Assembly: GCA_029237825.1 (NCBI GenBank)
Contig: JAQZBQ010000008.1
Location: forward strand, 62,001-126,000
From: Bacteroidota bacterium
GTDB lineage: Bacteria; Bacteroidota; Bacteroidia; B-17B0; Aurantibacillaceae
Direction: 5' to 3'
DNA length: 64,000 nucleotides
The notes under the pieces were generated by a model, which worked only from the letters and a program-made list of their open reading frames with translations, searched no databases and was not told the origin of the DNA. A program made the translations under genes and the position numbers. Shown one piece after another: positions 54,245 to 61,010 of this stretch. Numbering within the stretch: the stretch's first letter is position 1; the number at the start of each line of letters is the position of its first letter.

Positions 54245-57200
54245 TTAATGAAAATTTCTTCCGCCATGAAAAATGTGTGTTTGATTAGTCCTATTCTTTT
54301 TTGGTTTCTCCTGCAAGTCATTGCCATCAATGCTTTGGTCTTCGGATGCGCGTGCTTCATTATTAATTTCAGATGTTAAGTGAGATGAAAGGTCGTAGCA
54401 CTTTGTTACAATTACATGAATAACTTCGCCCTCTATTTGAACTTTTCCTTCTGCCATTAATAAGTGTGAATGAACGATTTCCTTTCGGTATTGATGAAAA
54501 AGATTTTTAAAGACAACCAAATTTGAAGTCCCGGTTTCATCTTCCAGCGTGATAAAGCAAATTCCGCTTGCAGTTCCCGGTCTTTGGCGCACAAGGACCA
54601 AGCCAGCTACCCTAACTACCATTCCGTTGCTGCAATTACAAAGCTTCTTATTCTGGATTACTTTTAGCAGAGATAATTTTGGTCTTACAAAGTAAATGGG
54701 ATGCGCTTTAAGGGATAAAGAAAGTGTTTTGTAATCTTCTATCACATGTTCATATAAATTCATTTCCGGGAGATGAATGCTTTGCTCGTTAATATCGCAT
54801 TCATTCAAACCCGCGAATAATCCAGTTAAGTGATCTTTGAGCGCTGAGGTTTCCCAAAGCGCTTTTCGTCTATCTAGTCCTATTGATCTAAAGGCATCAG
54901 CTTCTGCCAGTTTTTCGAGTGATGCTATGGATATTCCCAGATCCCGCAATTGAGAAATATTTGTATAGCGATCTGATCTGGCAGCGATTAAAAGTTGCAT
55001 GTCATTTTCCTTAACACCATTCACCTGCCTGAATCCTAATCGAATGGCATGATACTTACCATCTTTTTCCTCAAGGGTATTATCCCAGTTAGAAAAATTA
55101 ATATCCACACTTTTTACTTTCACATGGTGTTTAATGGCATCTGATATAATTTGTGCCGGTTGGTAAAATCCCATGGGCTGACTATTCAACAAAGCCACAG
55201 CAAAAATTTCAGGATAATAGCACTTGATCCAGGAAGAAACGTAGACTAATAATGCAAAACTAACTGCATGGCTTTCAGGAAAACCATAACTTCCAAAACC
55301 TTCCAGTTGGCGAAAGACGCGTCGTGCAAATTCTTCGGTATAGCCTTTTGCAACCATTCCGGTTATAAGTTTTTTTTCGAAGGCGCTTACCTGGCCATTT
55401 GCTTTAAAAGTAGCCATACTTCTTCGCAACTGATCTGCTTCAGCACCAGTAAATCCCGCAGCAACAATGGCAATTTCCATTGCCTGCTCCTGGAACAATG
55501 GAACACCTAATGTCCTTTCTAAAATTCTTTTGAGTTCCTCCGATGGGTATTCAACCGTTTCCTCATTATTTCGCCTTCGAAGATAGGGATGTACCATATC
55601 GCCCTGAATAGGTCCTGGTCTTACAATGGCCACTTCAATAACCAAATCATAAAAGCACCTTGGTTTTAATCTGGGTAGCATCGACATCTGAGCACGGCTT
55701 TCAATTTGAAAAACACCAATGGTGTCGGCATGGCTTACCATTTCAAATACTCGCAGATCATCTTGTGGGATGTTGGCAAGCGTGAGGTTTAAGTTATAAT
55801 GTAGTTTCGCAAGGTCGAATGCTTTTCGGATACAGGTTAACATACCAAGTGCCAAGACATCTACTTTTAAGAAACCAAGCGATTCGATGTCATCTTTGTT
55901 CCATTCAATATTAATTCTGTTTTTCATGCGTGCGTTCATTACCGGACATAAATCCGAGAGTTTACTCTCTGTAATTACAAACCCACCTGTATGTTGTCCT
56001 AATTGACGAGGGAACCCGATGTATTGTTCTGTGAGCTGCAATACTTTTAGTAAATGGGGATCATTTGCATTGAATCCCGTAGACGTAATTCCCTTGGAAT
56101 GCCTCCATTCGTCGGTAAATTCCCAACCCGATGATGATAACTTATTTACAGCATCCTGTGATAACCCCATTGCTTTTGCCACGTCGCGCACTGCACCTTT
56201 AAAATGTTGTTGGGTAACTGTTGCCACAATTGCAGCCCGGTGCCTGCCATACTTTTCATAGATGTATTGAATCACTTCTTCCCGCCGTTCATGTTCAAAA
56301 TCAACATCTATATCTGGTGGTTCATCACGGGCATCAGACATAAAGCGGCTGAACAATAAATTAAATTTTGACGGATCCACGGATGTTATGCCAAGACAAT
56401 AGCATACTGTTGAATTAGCTGCAGAGCCTCGTCCCTGGCATAAAATGTCCTGTTCACGCGCAAACTGAACGAAATCAAAAACAGTTAAGAAATAAGAGGC
56501 ATAATTTTTCCGGGCAATGAACTCCAGTTCGAATTGGATACATGATTTTATCTTTTCAGGAATGGAATTATTAAATTTTTCATGGGCTCCTTTCCATGTA
56601 AGGAAAACTAATTCTTCCTGAGGAGTTCTGCCTTCCTTTGTAATTTCTTTGGGATATTCATATTTTAATTCACTTAAACAAAAAGTACAGGCTTTTGCAA
56701 TTTTTTGTGTGTTTTCAATTGCTTCAGGATAAGCAGAAAACAAACGGATCATTTCTTCGGAAGCTTTTAAATAACGCTCTGCATTTTGGTAAAGTTTGTA
56801 TCCGGCGTTTTGTATTGTGCATTTTTCCCGGATACATGTAAGCACATCCTGTAATTCGCGTCGTTCAGGTGAATGGTAGTAGACATCATTTATGGCTACC
56901 AATGGCATTTGAGCCTGATTAGATATTTCGGAAAGCCTGTAAATTTTTTTTGAATCGTTGGCCTGGTATGACCGTATTGCGCCAAGGTAGACTTCATCTC
57001 CAAATTGTATTTTATATTCCTTTACAGCATTTAAAAAATCAGAATCAAAATCAAATAAGGAATTCAGGGAAGCAGGTGGAACCACAATGAATTTTATACC
57101 TTCTTTATACACGTAGACGTCTTTTTTTTCTAAAAGACATTTTCCCTTTTCTGTTCTTAAATTCCCTTCTGTTAATAAACCAGACAGTCGCGCGTAGGCT

Positions 57201-57448
57201 TCTTTGTTTGTAGGATAGGCTAATAAAGAGGGGCCATCCTCAAAATCTAATCGGCAGGCAGGGATAACGCGGATAGGTTTCTGTTTGGTTGCGGTGTAAG
57301 CTCTAACAATTCCTGCTAAAGTATTATGATCGGTAATAGCAATTTCAGAATATCCCAGTGCCAAAGCCTGATTCACTATTTCTTCTGGATGCGATCCCCC
57401 TTTTAAAAAACTAAAGTTGCTTGTTATTTGTAATTCCGTATACTTCAT
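54245..57448 (-). CDS. dnaE2: Error-prone DNA polymerase III alpha subunit DnaE2 (ImuC)
   Basis: A 1067-residue C-family polymerase. The N-terminal PHP domain starts with ELQITSNFSFLKGGSHPEE and contains IAITDHNTLAG. The palm domain shows RGSAANSTVCYCLGIT, then PDIDVDFEHERREEVIQYIY, which carries catalytic aspartates. The finger segment and HTGGFVI follow, and a C-terminal OB fold is at about 965-1045 (VRVAGLVLVRQRPGTASGI, FITLEDETG). It is shorter than replicative DnaE and sits in one operon with imuA and imuB, which identifies it as the lesion-bypass polymerase. The start at 57448 leaves five bases after imuB. The longer frame would overlap imuB by 28 bases. A bidirectional terminator lies downstream. 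Confidence 0.95.
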   Translation of the reverse strand: MKYTELQITSNFSFLKGGSHPEEIVNQALALGYSEIAITDHNTLAGIVRAYTATKQKPIRVIPACRLDFEDGPSLLAYPTNKEAYARLSGLLTEGNLRTEKGKCLLEKKDVYVYKEGIKFIVVPPASLNSLFDFDSDFLNAVKEYKIQFGDEVYLGAIRSYQANDSKKIYRLSEISNQAQMPLVAINDVYYHSPERRELQDVLTCIREKCTIQNAGYKLYQNAERYLKASEEMIRLFSAYPEAIENTQKIAKACTFCLSELKYEYPKEITKEGRTPQEELVFLTWKGAHEKFNNSIPEKIKSCIQFELEFIARKNYASYFLTVFDFVQFAREQDILCQGRGSAANSTVCYCLGITSVDPSKFNLLFSRFMSDARDEPPDIDVDFEHERREEVIQYIYEKYGRHRAAIVATVTQQHFKGAVRDVAKAMGLSQDAVNKLSSSGWEFTDEWRHSKGITSTGFNANDPHLLKVLQLTEQYIGFPRQLGQHTGGFVITESKLSDLCPVMNARMKNRINIEWNKDDIESLGFLKVDVLALGMLTCIRKAFDLAKLHYNLNLTLANIPQDDLRVFEMVSHADTIGVFQIESRAQMSMLPRLKPRCFYDLVIEVAIVRPGPIQGDMVHPYLRRRNNEETVEYPSEELKRILERTLGVPLFQEQAMEIAIVAAGFTGAEADQLRRSMATFKANGQVSAFEKKLITGMVAKGYTEEFARRVFRQLEGFGSYGFPESHAVSFALLVYVSSWIKCYYPEIFAVALLNSQPMGFYQPAQIISDAIKHHVKVKSVDINFSNWDNTLEEKDGKYHAIRLGFRQVNGVKENDMQLLIAARSDRYTNISQLRDLGISIASLEKLAEADAFRSIGLDRRKALWETSALKDHLTGLFAGLNECDINEQSIHLPEMNLYEHVIEDYKTLSLSLKAHPIYFVRPKLSLLKVIQNKKLCNCSNGMVVRVAGLVLVRQRPGTASGICFITLEDETGTSNLVVFKNLFHQYRKEIVHSHLLMAEGKVQIEGEVIHVIVTKCYDLSSHLTSEINNEARASEDQSIDGNDLQEKPKKNRTNQTHIFHGGRNFH

Positions 57449-57453
57449 TTTTC

Positions 57454-58950
57454 TTAGGCAAAAAAACCATGGATAAACCATTCCGCGTTGCTACTTTCAT
57501 AATTTCCTGATCTGAAGAGCCAATATCTTGCGCCCTGTTCATCTTCCACGCAATAATAATCCCTGTAAAGCCCTTCCTGTATCCACCATTCCTGTTCAAT
57601 GCGTTCAGGGCCATCGGCTTTTTTTACGGTATGAAGTGCTCCAAGGTAACGGAATAATAGTGGTGGATAATCCGGAACGGGGACACTTACTTCTATCGGT
57701 TCAGGTTTGGAAAGCAAATGGAGAGGCCTTGGTAAATCATTCCTCCATTTTGTGCTTGGTTTCTCTGTGAGTGATGTGGAATTTTTAACCGACATTTCAG
57801 GCCAATAATTTTCGGATGGTAAAAACCGATGAATGGCCTGGCTTCCAATTTTACCGGCAAGTTTATCCATTAATTCAGCAACAGCGGTTTCGTTTACGTA
57901 ACTTGTCGTCCACATGGAGTCCTGAGGGGGAACCAGATCTTCAACGATAGGCACTTCAAGAATAAAAAGTTCAATACCAAGATCGGGTTGAATGTGGGGA
58001 ATTTTAATTTCAAATAATTGAAACAGGTGAAGTGCATTTCGTGATGGTTTATGTGTGCCAATATTAATGGTTTGAACATTTCCATCAACGCGGTAGCACC
58101 GTAGTTGACAGGAACGCAAACCCTTTCCTTCTTTACATAATCGCGAGCACATTTTTTCAAGCATAGCTTTAATGGCAATTTCTATTCCTGATGCAGTGCG
58201 AATAGGTTCCAGGCTCGGTAAACGCTCTTCATATACAGCCGGCGGCTTTATGGGAGTAATCATTTCTATTTCAAATCCTAATGCCTGATCAATTCTTGAA
58301 AGCAATCCTTGTCCGAATCTTCTTCGCAAAGCAGTGCGTGGCATGTTGATAAAATCACCTACAGTTTTTAACCCTAATTTTTCAAGTTTATCACACACAC
58401 ACTTTTCAATCCTGAGTGAAGCCGGTGGCATATGAAAAATACTTGGCAAATGAGCCTTTAAGGATACGACCGAACCATTTTTTCCATAATGGCAAATTGC
58501 CCAGGCGCACCCAACAGTATCAGCCATTGCTAACCTTACCGAATATCCAATGGATGAGAAACGTTTATGTATTTCTTTTACATACAATTGGTCGTTTCCC
58601 CATAAATGGGTGCATCCGCCCGCATCAAGAATTAATACATTAGATTCATAAATTGCTACGATAGGAGTAAAACGCAGGCACCATTCCGAAAGATCCTTTA
58701 ATAATTTTTGTTCCTCAAGTGGGTTGTATTCGTAGATTTTTAATTCGGGTGCAAGCGCTGTGCAGTCTGCAACAACCATATCTACATAAATTCCTTTTTC
58801 ATGAGCAACAGCATTTACACTTTTTACGACCCGCCTGCCTTTTTCATTACAGGCCATTGCAAAGGGGATATCTTTTAGTTCAGGCTGTTTCCTGATCATC
58901 CAATCGGTCATTAAAAATGGAAACCATATTACCACTATTCGCTTCTCCAT
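57454..58950 (-). CDS. imuB: ImuB, Y-family polymerase-like mutasome protein
   Basis: A 498-residue protein with the Y-family polymerase fold that is predicted to be inactive. The first catalytic motif, normally DMDAFF, reads IWFPFLMTDW, and the SIDEAYLD motif reads LILDAGGCTHLW, so the carboxylate set is incomplete. Finger and thumb regions remain (SVNAVAHEKGIYVDM; LEKLGLKTVGDFINMPRTAL, a helix-hairpin-helix; RRRFGQGLLSRIDQALG). The C-terminal 150 residues are specific to ImuB and end with RYWLFRSGNYE and WFIHGFF. ImuB acts as the platform that joins ImuA, DnaE2 and the beta clamp. It starts two bases after imuA ends and precedes dnaE2 by five. Confidence 0.93.
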   Translation of the reverse strand: MEKRIVVIWFPFLMTDWMIRKQPELKDIPFAMACNEKGRRVVKSVNAVAHEKGIYVDMVVADCTALAPELKIYEYNPLEEQKLLKDLSEWCLRFTPIVAIYESNVLILDAGGCTHLWGNDQLYVKEIHKRFSSIGYSVRLAMADTVGCAWAICHYGKNGSVVSLKAHLPSIFHMPPASLRIEKCVCDKLEKLGLKTVGDFINMPRTALRRRFGQGLLSRIDQALGFEIEMITPIKPPAVYEERLPSLEPIRTASGIEIAIKAMLEKMCSRLCKEGKGLRSCQLRCYRVDGNVQTINIGTHKPSRNALHLFQLFEIKIPHIQPDLGIELFILEVPIVEDLVPPQDSMWTTSYVNETAVAELMDKLAGKIGSQAIHRFLPSENYWPEMSVKNSTSLTEKPSTKWRNDLPRPLHLLSKPEPIEVSVPVPDYPPLLFRYLGALHTVKKADGPERIEQEWWIQEGLYRDYYCVEDEQGARYWLFRSGNYESSNAEWFIHGFFA

Positions 58951-58952
58951 GA

Positions 58953-59675
58953 TTATGCGCTTTTAAGAGTGGACTTTGGAACCGATAAAAGATCGCCAGG
59001 CAAATATTCCAATCCAGCCGGCGACCATTGCACCCTCCATTTTTGTGGATTACCATTTTTTACTTTTAATAATTCAATTTCCCATTGCGGGAATCCTACA
59101 CCAGGCATTTTACCCGGTAACACACTTGGTATGGGTGTAATTTTCCACCTTGCTACACTTGCTAATGGATGAACGTTTTTGGGTTGGTGACGGTGAATAA
59201 ACCCAGTAACATTGCTTTTTTCAACTGCCAATTGCAAACGTCTCGAATCATTAAAACTCAGTTCACCAATTTCTCCTACAACCCCTGTTAAAGCTTCGCA
59301 TTTCAGGGCTTCTTCCAATGCCCACAAAGTATCTTTTACTTTCCATACATCTACAAATAAAATTTGTTCTGGATTGATGCCGAAAGCTTTCAGGGCTGGT
59401 GGATAAATTTTCCGCTTATTACTAATCCATACGCAAGTAGTTCTTTCTTTAGTGAGTTTTCCCAGTAACATAGACAGAAAGCCATTGGTTGCCGATGAAG
59501 CGTCTGGTGTAAAGCTCACTAATTCGTGGATGGCGCCTAAAGGAAAGCTTTTTCCAGGAAAAGCCGTTTCAATAGCTCCGAGCCCTAGGTTTAGAGTCGC
59601 TTCCTGATGTTTATAATTTCCCTGTAGACTTAGAATGCGTTGTTGCAACTGCTCAATGATCTCCTGCCGCTTCAT
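58953..59675 (-). CDS. imuA: ImuA, RecA-like mutasome protein
   Basis: A 240-residue protein related to RecA and needed for damage-induced mutagenesis with ImuB and DnaE2. The RecA-like core is visible (GLGAIETAFPGKSFPLGAIHE, CVWISNKRKIYPPALKAFGI, ILFVDVWKVKDTLWALEEAL). However, the place of the ATP loop reads SFTPDASSATNGFLS and lacks GKT, so nucleotide binding by the usual P-loop is unlikely. It is the first gene of the operon imuA-imuB-dnaE2, with two- and five-base gaps. It is divergent from recA across a 285-base region. A -7 element is 19 bases before the start, and a 22-bp inverted repeat lies directly behind that element. Confidence 0.92.
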   Translation of the reverse strand: MKRQEIIEQLQQRILSLQGNYKHQEATLNLGLGAIETAFPGKSFPLGAIHELVSFTPDASSATNGFLSMLLGKLTKERTTCVWISNKRKIYPPALKAFGINPEQILFVDVWKVKDTLWALEEALKCEALTGVVGEIGELSFNDSRRLQLAVEKSNVTGFIHRHQPKNVHPLASVARWKITPIPSVLPGKMPGVGFPQWEIELLKVKNGNPQKWRVQWSPAGLEYLPGDLLSVPKSTLKSA

Positions 59676-59694
59676 GATGGTTTATTTATGCGGC

Positions 59695-59702
59695 AAAATT
59701 AA
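59695..59702 (-). promoter_or_regulatory. Candidate -7 element (TAATTTTG) of the imuA operon
   Basis: On the minus strand TAATTTTG matches TAnnTTTG and lies 19 bases before the imuA ATG. The -33 region would fall inside the inverted repeat at 59710-59731. Confidence 0.55.
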
Positions 59703-59709
59703 CTACAAA

Positions 59710-59731
59710 TTATAGTATTTATATACTATAA
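59710..59731. promoter_or_regulatory. Inverted repeat, candidate operator of the imuA-imuB-dnaE2 operon
   Basis: Two nine-base arms, TTATAGTAT and ATACTATAA, are perfectly complementary around a four-base centre (TTAT). The repeat starts eight bases upstream of the imuA -7 element, so a bound dimeric repressor would cover the -33 region. The layout is that of an SOS-type (LexA-like) operator, but no regulator gene is in the window and the sequence is not one I can match to a known box. Confidence 0.6.
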
Positions 59732-59875
59732 AACATAGCATATTGTTAAATCTTATTTTTTTTGAAAATATAATGTGATGAAGACAGGTATTTATTTTTA
59801 GTCTGAAGGCATTGAAAACACTGGTATTTTTAACAATGCTACAATTTATAGCAACAACTTGCCAGATAGTTGGTT

Positions 59876-59883
59876 TAGATTTG
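59876..59883 (+). promoter_or_regulatory. Candidate -7 element (TAGATTTG) of recA
   Basis: TAGATTTG matches TAnnTTTG, 77 bases before the recA ATG. The rest of the 285-base recA-imuA region is A+T-rich. It also contains ACTATAAAA at 59946-59954, repeating one arm (with flank) of the imuA inverted repeat just before the recA start. Confidence 0.4.
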
Positions 59884-59960
59884 TAAAGAATTTGAGATTG
59901 TTATCAAGTTGTTAATGGCGATCAAAATTAAAACCGTAACTTAAAACTATAAAATATATC

Positions 59961-61010
59961 ATGGCAAAGAAAACTGAAGAAACCATTGAAGCTGTTGACA
60001 GAAAAGCAGTGGGAAGTGAAAAATTAAAAGCATTGCAATTGACTTTGGATAAGTTAGAAAAAACTTATGGTAAAGGAACAATAATGAAGCTTGGTGATAA
60101 TGTCGTAGAGCCTATGGATTCAATTTCTACCGGATCATTGGGATTAAATATTGCTTTAGGAATTGGTGGTTTACCAAGAGGGCGAATTGTTGAGATTTAT
60201 GGTCCGGAATCTTCCGGTAAAACAACGCTGGCTATTCATGCTATCGCAAGTGTACAAAAGTCAGGCGGTATTGCTGCAATCATTGATGCGGAACACGCGT
60301 TTGATCGTTTTTATGCCGAAAAATTAGGTGTTGATACAAAAAGTTTATTGATTTCACAGCCGGATAATGGAGAACAGGCCCTTGAAATTGCGGATAATCT
60401 TATTCGTTCAGGCGCTGTGGATTTGGTTGTTATTGATTCGGTTGCTGCATTAACTCCAAAAGCAGAAATTGAAGGTGAAATGGGGGACAGCAGAATGGGT
60501 CTTCAGGCACGTTTAATGAGTCAGGCATTGCGTAAGTTAACCGGTACAATCAATAAGACTGGTTGTTGCTGTATTTTCATTAACCAGTTAAGGGAAAAAA
60601 TTGGTGTTATGTTTGGAAATCCTGAAACCACAACTGGAGGTAATGCCCTTAAGTTTTATGCCTCTGTAAGGTTAGATATCCGTAGAATTAGCCAGATTAA
60701 AGACGGTGATGTTGTTACCGGCAACCGTACACGTGTAAAAGTTATTAAAAACAAATTGGCACCCCCTTTCAGAATGTCCGAGTTTGATATTGTTTTTGGG
60801 GAAGGAATCAGTAAAGTTGGGGAAATCATTGACATTGGTGTTGAAAAGAACATCATTAAGAAGAGTGGTTCATGGTTTAGTTATGAAGATACTAAATTAG
60901 GCCAGGGAAGGGATGCGGTGAAAGCTTTGTTTGCCGAAAACCCTGATCTTGCGCAGGAAATTGAAGATAAAATCATTGCTGTACTCGCAGAAGAAGCTGC
61001 GAATGCCTGA
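59961..61010 (+). CDS. recA: Recombinase A
   Basis: A 349-residue DNA-dependent ATPase for homologous recombination and SOS co-protease activity. Marks are [20 protein letters not shown], the Walker A loop GPESSGKTT (81-89), [31 protein letters not shown] (Walker B), the L2 region with [20 protein letters not shown], and [16 protein letters not shown]. Length is normal. The first 25 residues ([20 protein letters not shown]) are an ordinary variable extension before the conserved [19 protein letters not shown]. It faces the imuA operon head-to-head and is followed by a terminator. Confidence 0.98.

Follow-up and report, generated by a model that had tools for sequence, protein, structure and literature searches.

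Candidate SOS operators between imuA and recA in a Bacteroidia genome, and a CI-like non-canonical LexA as their probable reader

The window analysed here, a stretch of 64,000 nucleotides, carries an imuA-imuB-dnaE2 cluster that diverges from recA, and the 285-bp gap between the two divergent starts raises the question of what controls the genes on either side. Based on the sites found in this gap and elsewhere, on their geometry, their conservation and the genes downstream of them, and on the sequence signature of a regulator gene on another contig, we propose, with a probability of roughly nine in ten, that the gap contains SOS operators read by a CI-like non-canonical LexA encoded on contig C13 (Table 1). 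The genes themselves were named with differing support. The 240-aa imuA product has no match at all in a Pfam profile search, its neighbor is presumably imuB, a name that we take from its position, and the true start of dnaE2 is probably near 57448, because the annotated reading frame overlaps imuB.

Table 1. Coordinates of the genes and candidate regulatory elements in the window, and of the candidate regulator elsewhere in the genome
Feature	Position	Strand	Basis
dnaE2, error-prone polymerase	54245..57481	-	NCBIfam error-prone DNA polymerase, above cut-off
imuB (498 aa), Y-family polymerase-like	57454..58950	-	Pfam IMS, above cut-off
imuA (240 aa)	58953..59675	-	NCBIfam ImuA_translesion, E 1.1e-20, under curated cut-off
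imuA -7 element, TAATTTTG	59694..59701	-	Sequence; clustering of TANNTTTG 21-22 nt past dyads
imuA proximal operator dyad (candidate), CTATAATTTGTAG	59703..59715	-	Between -33 and -7; tandem pair conserved
Inverted repeat	59710..59731	.	Inner halves of two adjacent dyads with a 10-nt spacer between them
imuA distal operator dyad (candidate), TGCTATGTTTTATAGTA	59724..59740 (13-bp core 59726-59738)	-	Covers the -33 region
recA operator dyad (candidate), TGCTACAATTTATAGCA	59837..59853	+	107 nt upstream of the recA ATG
recA -7 element, TAGATTTG	59876..59883	+	22 nt past the recA dyad
recA, divergent to imuA	59961..61010	+	TIGR02012, above cut-off
Candidate regulator (261 aa, HTH_3 and S24)	G000:C13:284449-285231		Pfam HTH_3 and Peptidase_S24

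The inverted repeat and its re-registration

A previous sequence-only reading of this gap had singled out the inverted repeat TTATAGTAT-TTAT-ATACTATAA as a candidate SOS operator on the imuA promoter, and the repeat is indeed there, with perfect arms and with eight bases between it and the -7-like element of imuA. Taken alone, this 9-N4-9 repeat is only mildly unusual, and it is weak evidence because 150 of 2000 first-order resamplings of the intergenic stretch also produced perfect 9-bp arms around a loop of 0-10; the whole window contains 20 such pairs, with nested ones counted separately, whereas 20 resamplings gave 6.0 on average. The frequency of such arms in resamplings of this AT-rich stretch speaks for a chance AT-rich palindrome, or else for an RNA hairpin or terminator. 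Such an origin is nevertheless barely credible: the repeat ends no gene, because it is located between divergent starts, no terminator-like site was found in 59600-60000, and the 36-bp unit in which it is embedded is both absent from the control search and retained before imuA in most imuA-bearing relatives, as detailed below.

When the 22-bp motif of the repeat was used as a genome probe, it returned 4 sites against 7 for the reversed control (≤3 mismatches, whole genome), and it was rejected as the recognition unit. On the imuA strand, positions 59703-59738 read as two 13-bp dyads, CTATGTTTTATAG-N10-CTATAATTTGTAG, with a pitch of 23 bp (CTACAAATTATAG-N10-CTATAAAACATAG on the plus strand), and the underlying unit of the region is TGCTAY-N5-RTAGCA. 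The 9-N4-9 repeat is the junction formed by the inner halves of two CTAY-N5-RTAG dyads, and not one operator. A search with the tandem pattern CTAYRAWTYRTAG-N10-CTAYRAWTYRTAG (≤3 mismatches, with the reversed pattern as control) yielded 5 sites against 0 in the window's own genome and 62 against 0 in the 20 genomes of the genus, own genome included, which puts the 36-bp unit in its new register far outside chance expectation. Its five sites in the own genome lie at imuA, at a decayed second imuA, at umuDC, at the gene for the 261-aa regulator on C13 and at a gene of unknown family on C16. The distal dyad of imuA departs from the tight pattern at one of 13 positions, and the own umuDC copy is a weaker one. 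One could still regard the repeat TTATAGTAT-N4-ATACTATAA as a single operator bound by one dimer of some other regulator, since its arms are perfect and G008 keeps the junction as TAGYA-N6-TRCTA. We consider this very improbable in view of the failed genome probe; moreover, the recA, ruvB and dinB promoters have the full dyad without the junction repeat, and it is the dyad, not the junction, that stands before the known SOS genes of this genome. The idea of an SOS-type operator on the imuA promoter is supported, and it was mistaken as to the unit; the genome scan that the sequence-only reading had suggested gives no excess over the control with the repeat as written and does lead to SOS genes with the re-registered dyad.

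Absence of the repeat upstream of imuA in close relatives had been named as an observation that would count against an operator, and the relatives speak in its favor, because eight of the nine imuA-bearing genomes in the family keep the tandem dyad (0-3 mismatches of 26), though imuA itself is patchy. It turned up in 9 of the 87 genomes of the family and in 2 of 10 genera (the order-level genome set consists of the same 87 genomes), against 19 of the 20 genus genomes for the SOS regulator. The tandem dyad begins 61-65 bp before the imuA start in the six genomes with a script-located start, and the other two cases were found by direct reading of the upstream stretch. G008 has a cleaner copy, CTACAAATTATAG-N10-CTATAATTTGTAG; in G032, whose imuA match runs from residue 34 on, the stretch read contains no box. 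The own genome also harbors a second, decayed imuA with several stops (L011:1438-2220 and L259; G000:C29 ~127872-129030), which retains a nearly perfect tandem SOS operator, with genes for a DUF4007 protein and a large AAA protein nearby.

On the recA side, the partial copy ACTATAAAA that had been reported near the gene is present at 59946-59954, but as a lone half without a dyad, and it was rejected as an operator. The sequence-only reading did not include the dyad listed for recA in Table 1. A recA dyad also occurs in G001, G002, G005 and G008, with the qualification that the script's tally of recA sites includes one that is the imuA site of G008. A single good dyad was seen at recA, without a clear partner.

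Boxed genes and promoter geometry

With the single extended dyad as pattern (the 17-mer TGCTAYRAWTYRTAGCA, ≤2 mismatches), the own genome gave 24 sites against 7 in the control, nine of them exact. The genes behind these boxes, whose starts lie 10-107 nt further on, are those for the regulator, recA, ruvB, umuDC, comM, radA, a splB-like radical SAM protein, a DnaQ/GIY-YIG exonuclease, dinB (followed by the start of a PHP-domain dnaE), an integrase and a 141-aa protein of unknown function; comM, splB-like and radA are names assigned tentatively from Pfam domains. Dyads inside coding sequence (C27:17058, C22:306892, C31:407591 and C31:432612) look chance-like, those at C32:60114 and C13:78920 lack the start of a longer reading frame within 300 bp, and C29:129026 adjoins the decayed imuA copy; this placement covers the sites other than C5, C24 and C27:23613. 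Across the 20 genomes of the genus (g1), the strict 17-mer occurs 234 times against 19 in the control. The signal is strong there and in genus g8 (95 against 2), modest in g3 (123 against 32) and low in the remaining seven genera together (28 against 13). The surroundings of 74 among the 234 exact 17-mers were examined, namely those in seven of the genus's 20 genomes (G001-G006 and G008). Orientation was possible for 63 of the 74, each with a suitable start no more than 160 bp away; four of the 63 are the regulator itself, and 26 of the 74 belong to no named gene class.

Several boxed genes merit a separate mention. A gene without Pfam match (L018:1499-2473 and L183) is 43% identical between G000 and G001, and each copy has its SOS box; the G000 copy is situated at the end of a contig, close to what by eye resembles a set of type I restriction-modification genes. 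A tyrosine recombinase (Phage_integrase; L150:216-1400 and L217) starts 33-34 bp past an SOS box in two genomes, and recombination may therefore be damage-inducible. The genes for small proteins of ~140-150 aa without Pfam match (L148:1049-1517 and L219), 32% identical over 92 positions, are boxed in G000 as well as in G004.

Among the named classes of targets, the phage antirepressor-like ORF6N genes are the largest, with 10 of the 74 genus sites. A genus-wide profile search of the 20 genomes found PF10543 at 55 places in 16 genomes, with no match in the window's own genome. Leaving out four fragmentary matches, 51 distinct matches in 50 loci (L262-L311) remain, of which 39 have the box upstream of the domain at ≤1 mismatch (29 exactly) and 12 are without it; the background control had the box in 3 of 98 segments. 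In the ten loci viewed, these are single genes amid unrelated neighbors, apart from two in a row in L303. The ORF6N boxes may be the more novel consequence of the finding: should it hold true, DNA damage would unleash a set of phage-derived proteins in addition to the repair genes, because the ORF6N genes carry SOS boxes of their own.

The boxes also tend to stand at one place within the promoter. In Bacteroidetes, promoters follow the consensus TANNTTTG, with a TTG further upstream. A perfect TANNTTTG lies within 45 nt of the dyad at 23 of 59 oriented promoters in the seven genus genomes and at 36 it does not. In 19 of the 23 it starts 21-22 nt past the 17-mer, and in the other four elsewhere, compared with 5 of 295 background segments (where a promoter had several, the script kept the one nearest 21 nt); this clustering therefore supports the consensus. 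In the own genome, 12 of the 14 listed promoters have a TANNTT element 21-22 nt past the dyad, the exceptions being the regulator, with a strong dyad further down, and the irregular C16 gene. At imuA, the end of the distal dyad is 22 nt from the -7 element.

A fixed second dyad at every promoter was rejected, as a second dyad (at least 6 of 8 matches) stands at +23 in just 14 of 63 oriented sites and at -23 in 5. It was seen at +20 in 6 of the 63 and at -20 in one, and at none of them at +22, +24, +28 or +33. Across promoters, mild conservation is seen at the left edge of a second dyad (TGC, +23 to +25). The operators of phage lambda are paired, with a spacing of about 23-24 bp that places the dimers on about the same face of the DNA, and the 23-bp pitch would do the same for two dimers here. 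A lambda-like cooperative pair of dimers, reduced at weaker promoters to one dyad and the relic of a half-site, together with SOS control of the scattered ORF6N genes, is a tentative extension of the main proposal, plausible but somewhat short of even odds.

The candidate regulator on C13

As the sequence-only reading had stated, the regulator is not encoded in the window. That the genome might lack a LexA-like protein altogether was rejected, the tandem box having led to the C13 regulator. A first look with PF00717 had shown UmuD, a decayed S24 fragment and one sub-threshold match. The decayed fragment (L006:1480-2380; G000:C29 ~201700-202600) is followed by a multiubiquitin gene and a prokaryotic E2 gene. 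A repressor of the UmuDAb type, with the DNA-binding domain on UmuD, was rejected as well: UmuD has 154 aa and, in Pfam, Peptidase_S24 alone, without a helix-turn-helix.

The C13 protein combines a helix-turn-helix of the PF01381 type (HTH_3, 58.6 bits) with a following S24 peptidase domain (Peptidase_S24, 30.6 bits), both above the Pfam cut-offs. Residues A106, G107, S143 and K182 are invariant across 34 aligned homologues, and by motif we assign Ala106-Gly107 as the putative cleavage bond and Ser143/Lys182 as the putative catalytic dyad. The AlphaFold2 model reaches a modest quality, with mean pLDDT 68 and pTM 0.46. Its best Foldseek matches are lambda-186 hybrid, lambda, 186 CI and LexA repressors, with TM-scores below 0.5 by query length for full-length matches, and it predicts a helix at 235-259, after the S24 domain, where the block mean pLDDT is 40-53. 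The family of PMC8565304 has an additional C-terminal helix behind its S24 domain, and this low-confidence segment is where a candidate counterpart would lie. Orthologues were found in 19 of the 20 genus genomes; G010 has a weak partial match only, and in G014, beside the end of a contig, just residues 1-69 are present.

The proposed link between regulator and box rests on autoregulation and shared occurrence. Two perfect CTAY-N5-RTAG dyads exactly 23 bp apart occur within 150 bp upstream of the gene in 44 of 44 regulator homologues with at least 58% identity (L061-L103 and L127, from the genome collection) and in none of 36 more distant homologues (≤52% identity); the 44 overlap the genus genomes and are thus not independent of the genus tandem counts. 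Within the genus, 18 of the 19 orthologue-bearing genomes have the tandem pair before the regulator (≤3 mismatches), and in the nineteenth, G012 (L067), it is present with more mismatches to the tight pattern. A perfect CTAA-N5-TTAG is found within 150 bp in none of the 44 close promoters and in two of the 36 distant ones (L108 and L109). The statement that the repeat matches no known box falls short in that the box is a variant of this published Bacteroidetes sequence.

A gene with a box in front of it is more naturally read as a target than as the source of the regulation, and some other protein, either an XRE- or WYL-type regulator or UmuD, might read the boxes, with the C13 regulator a mere member of the regulon. 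UmuD, however, lacks a helix-turn-helix, the C13 protein is an HTH and S24 homologue of repressors that bind related boxes according to the main text of the study describing them (PMC8565304), and only the closer homologues of the regulator have the tandem box. We therefore rate another reader as improbable, and retain the C13 protein as the probable repressor.

Proposed mechanism and comparison with known systems

In the scheme that we propose, two repressor dimers would sit on the two 13-bp dyads of imuA and one dimer on the recA dyad. RNA polymerase would be excluded, since a dyad covers the -33 region at both promoters and, at imuA, a further one lies between -33 and -7. Upon DNA damage, RecA filaments would induce the repressor to cut itself at Ala106-Gly107 by means of Ser143/Lys182, which would turn on imuA-imuB-dnaE2, recA and the other SOS genes. 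The repressor would limit its own level, because its gene carries a tandem operator. Binding, cooperativity, repression and self-cleavage are thus all predicted from sequence. These data indicate SOS control by a non-canonical LexA in a genus of uncultured Bacteroidia and in at least part of its family, and the TGCTAY-N5-RTAGCA box, with its preferred place in the promoter, would allow damage-inducible genes to be predicted from sequence, radA, comM, ORF6N, Bro-N and integrase genes among them. The clade is a good case for the joint change of a repressor and its operator, because the box has shifted whereas the frame of the protein has been kept.

A non-canonical LexA family of Bacteroidetes was described in 2021, and its repressors bind related boxes (PMC8565304, main text). 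The CTAA-N5-TTAG regulon presented there comprises umuDC, recA, recN, dinB, ruvB, splB, imuA-imuB-dnaE2 and a GIY-YIG exonuclease; with recN left out, the same genes are common to the regulon found here, and this agreement identifies the system. According to the same text, the P. actiniarum group shares with our candidate a CI-type HTH with S24, an Ala-Gly bond and a Ser-Lys dyad, as well as a 13-bp 4-N5-4 palindrome and a box at the repressor's own gene. The box of that group is CTAA-N5-TTAG, whereas that of the clade studied here is CTAY-N5-RTAG with TG/CA flanks, and, unlike there, two dyads with a fixed 23-bp pitch stand at imuA and at the regulator. Elizabethkingia anophelis, a different lineage, has a repressor of the same family and frame; its box, TTAC-AAATT-GTAA (PMC8565304, main text), has the inner AC-AAATT-GT in common with the CTAC-AAATT-GTAG sites found here and differs in the outer bases, TT..AA against CT..AG. 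The main text of PMC8565304, supplements aside, makes no mention of ORF6N, Bro-N, radA or a TGCTA box and does not name comM or integrase genes as targets, and no later Bacteroidetes study of this regulator appears by title among the matches listed.

Two better-known systems frame the comparison. With the CI repressors of lambda, P22 and 186, the candidate shares a CI-like domain order and paired operators, but in those phages they serve a prophage switch, whereas here a chromosomal repair regulon is at stake and cooperativity is presumed. With canonical LexA, it shares the proposed role and the S24 cleavage signature; unlike the LexA of the E. coli-type SOS box, it has a CI-type N-terminus, a different box, and no match to the LexA equivalog TIGR00498 among the 13 models that match it at E ≤0.01. 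The kind of system has thus been known since 2021, while the CTAY-N5-RTAG box and its fixed tandem arrangement appear to be new here.
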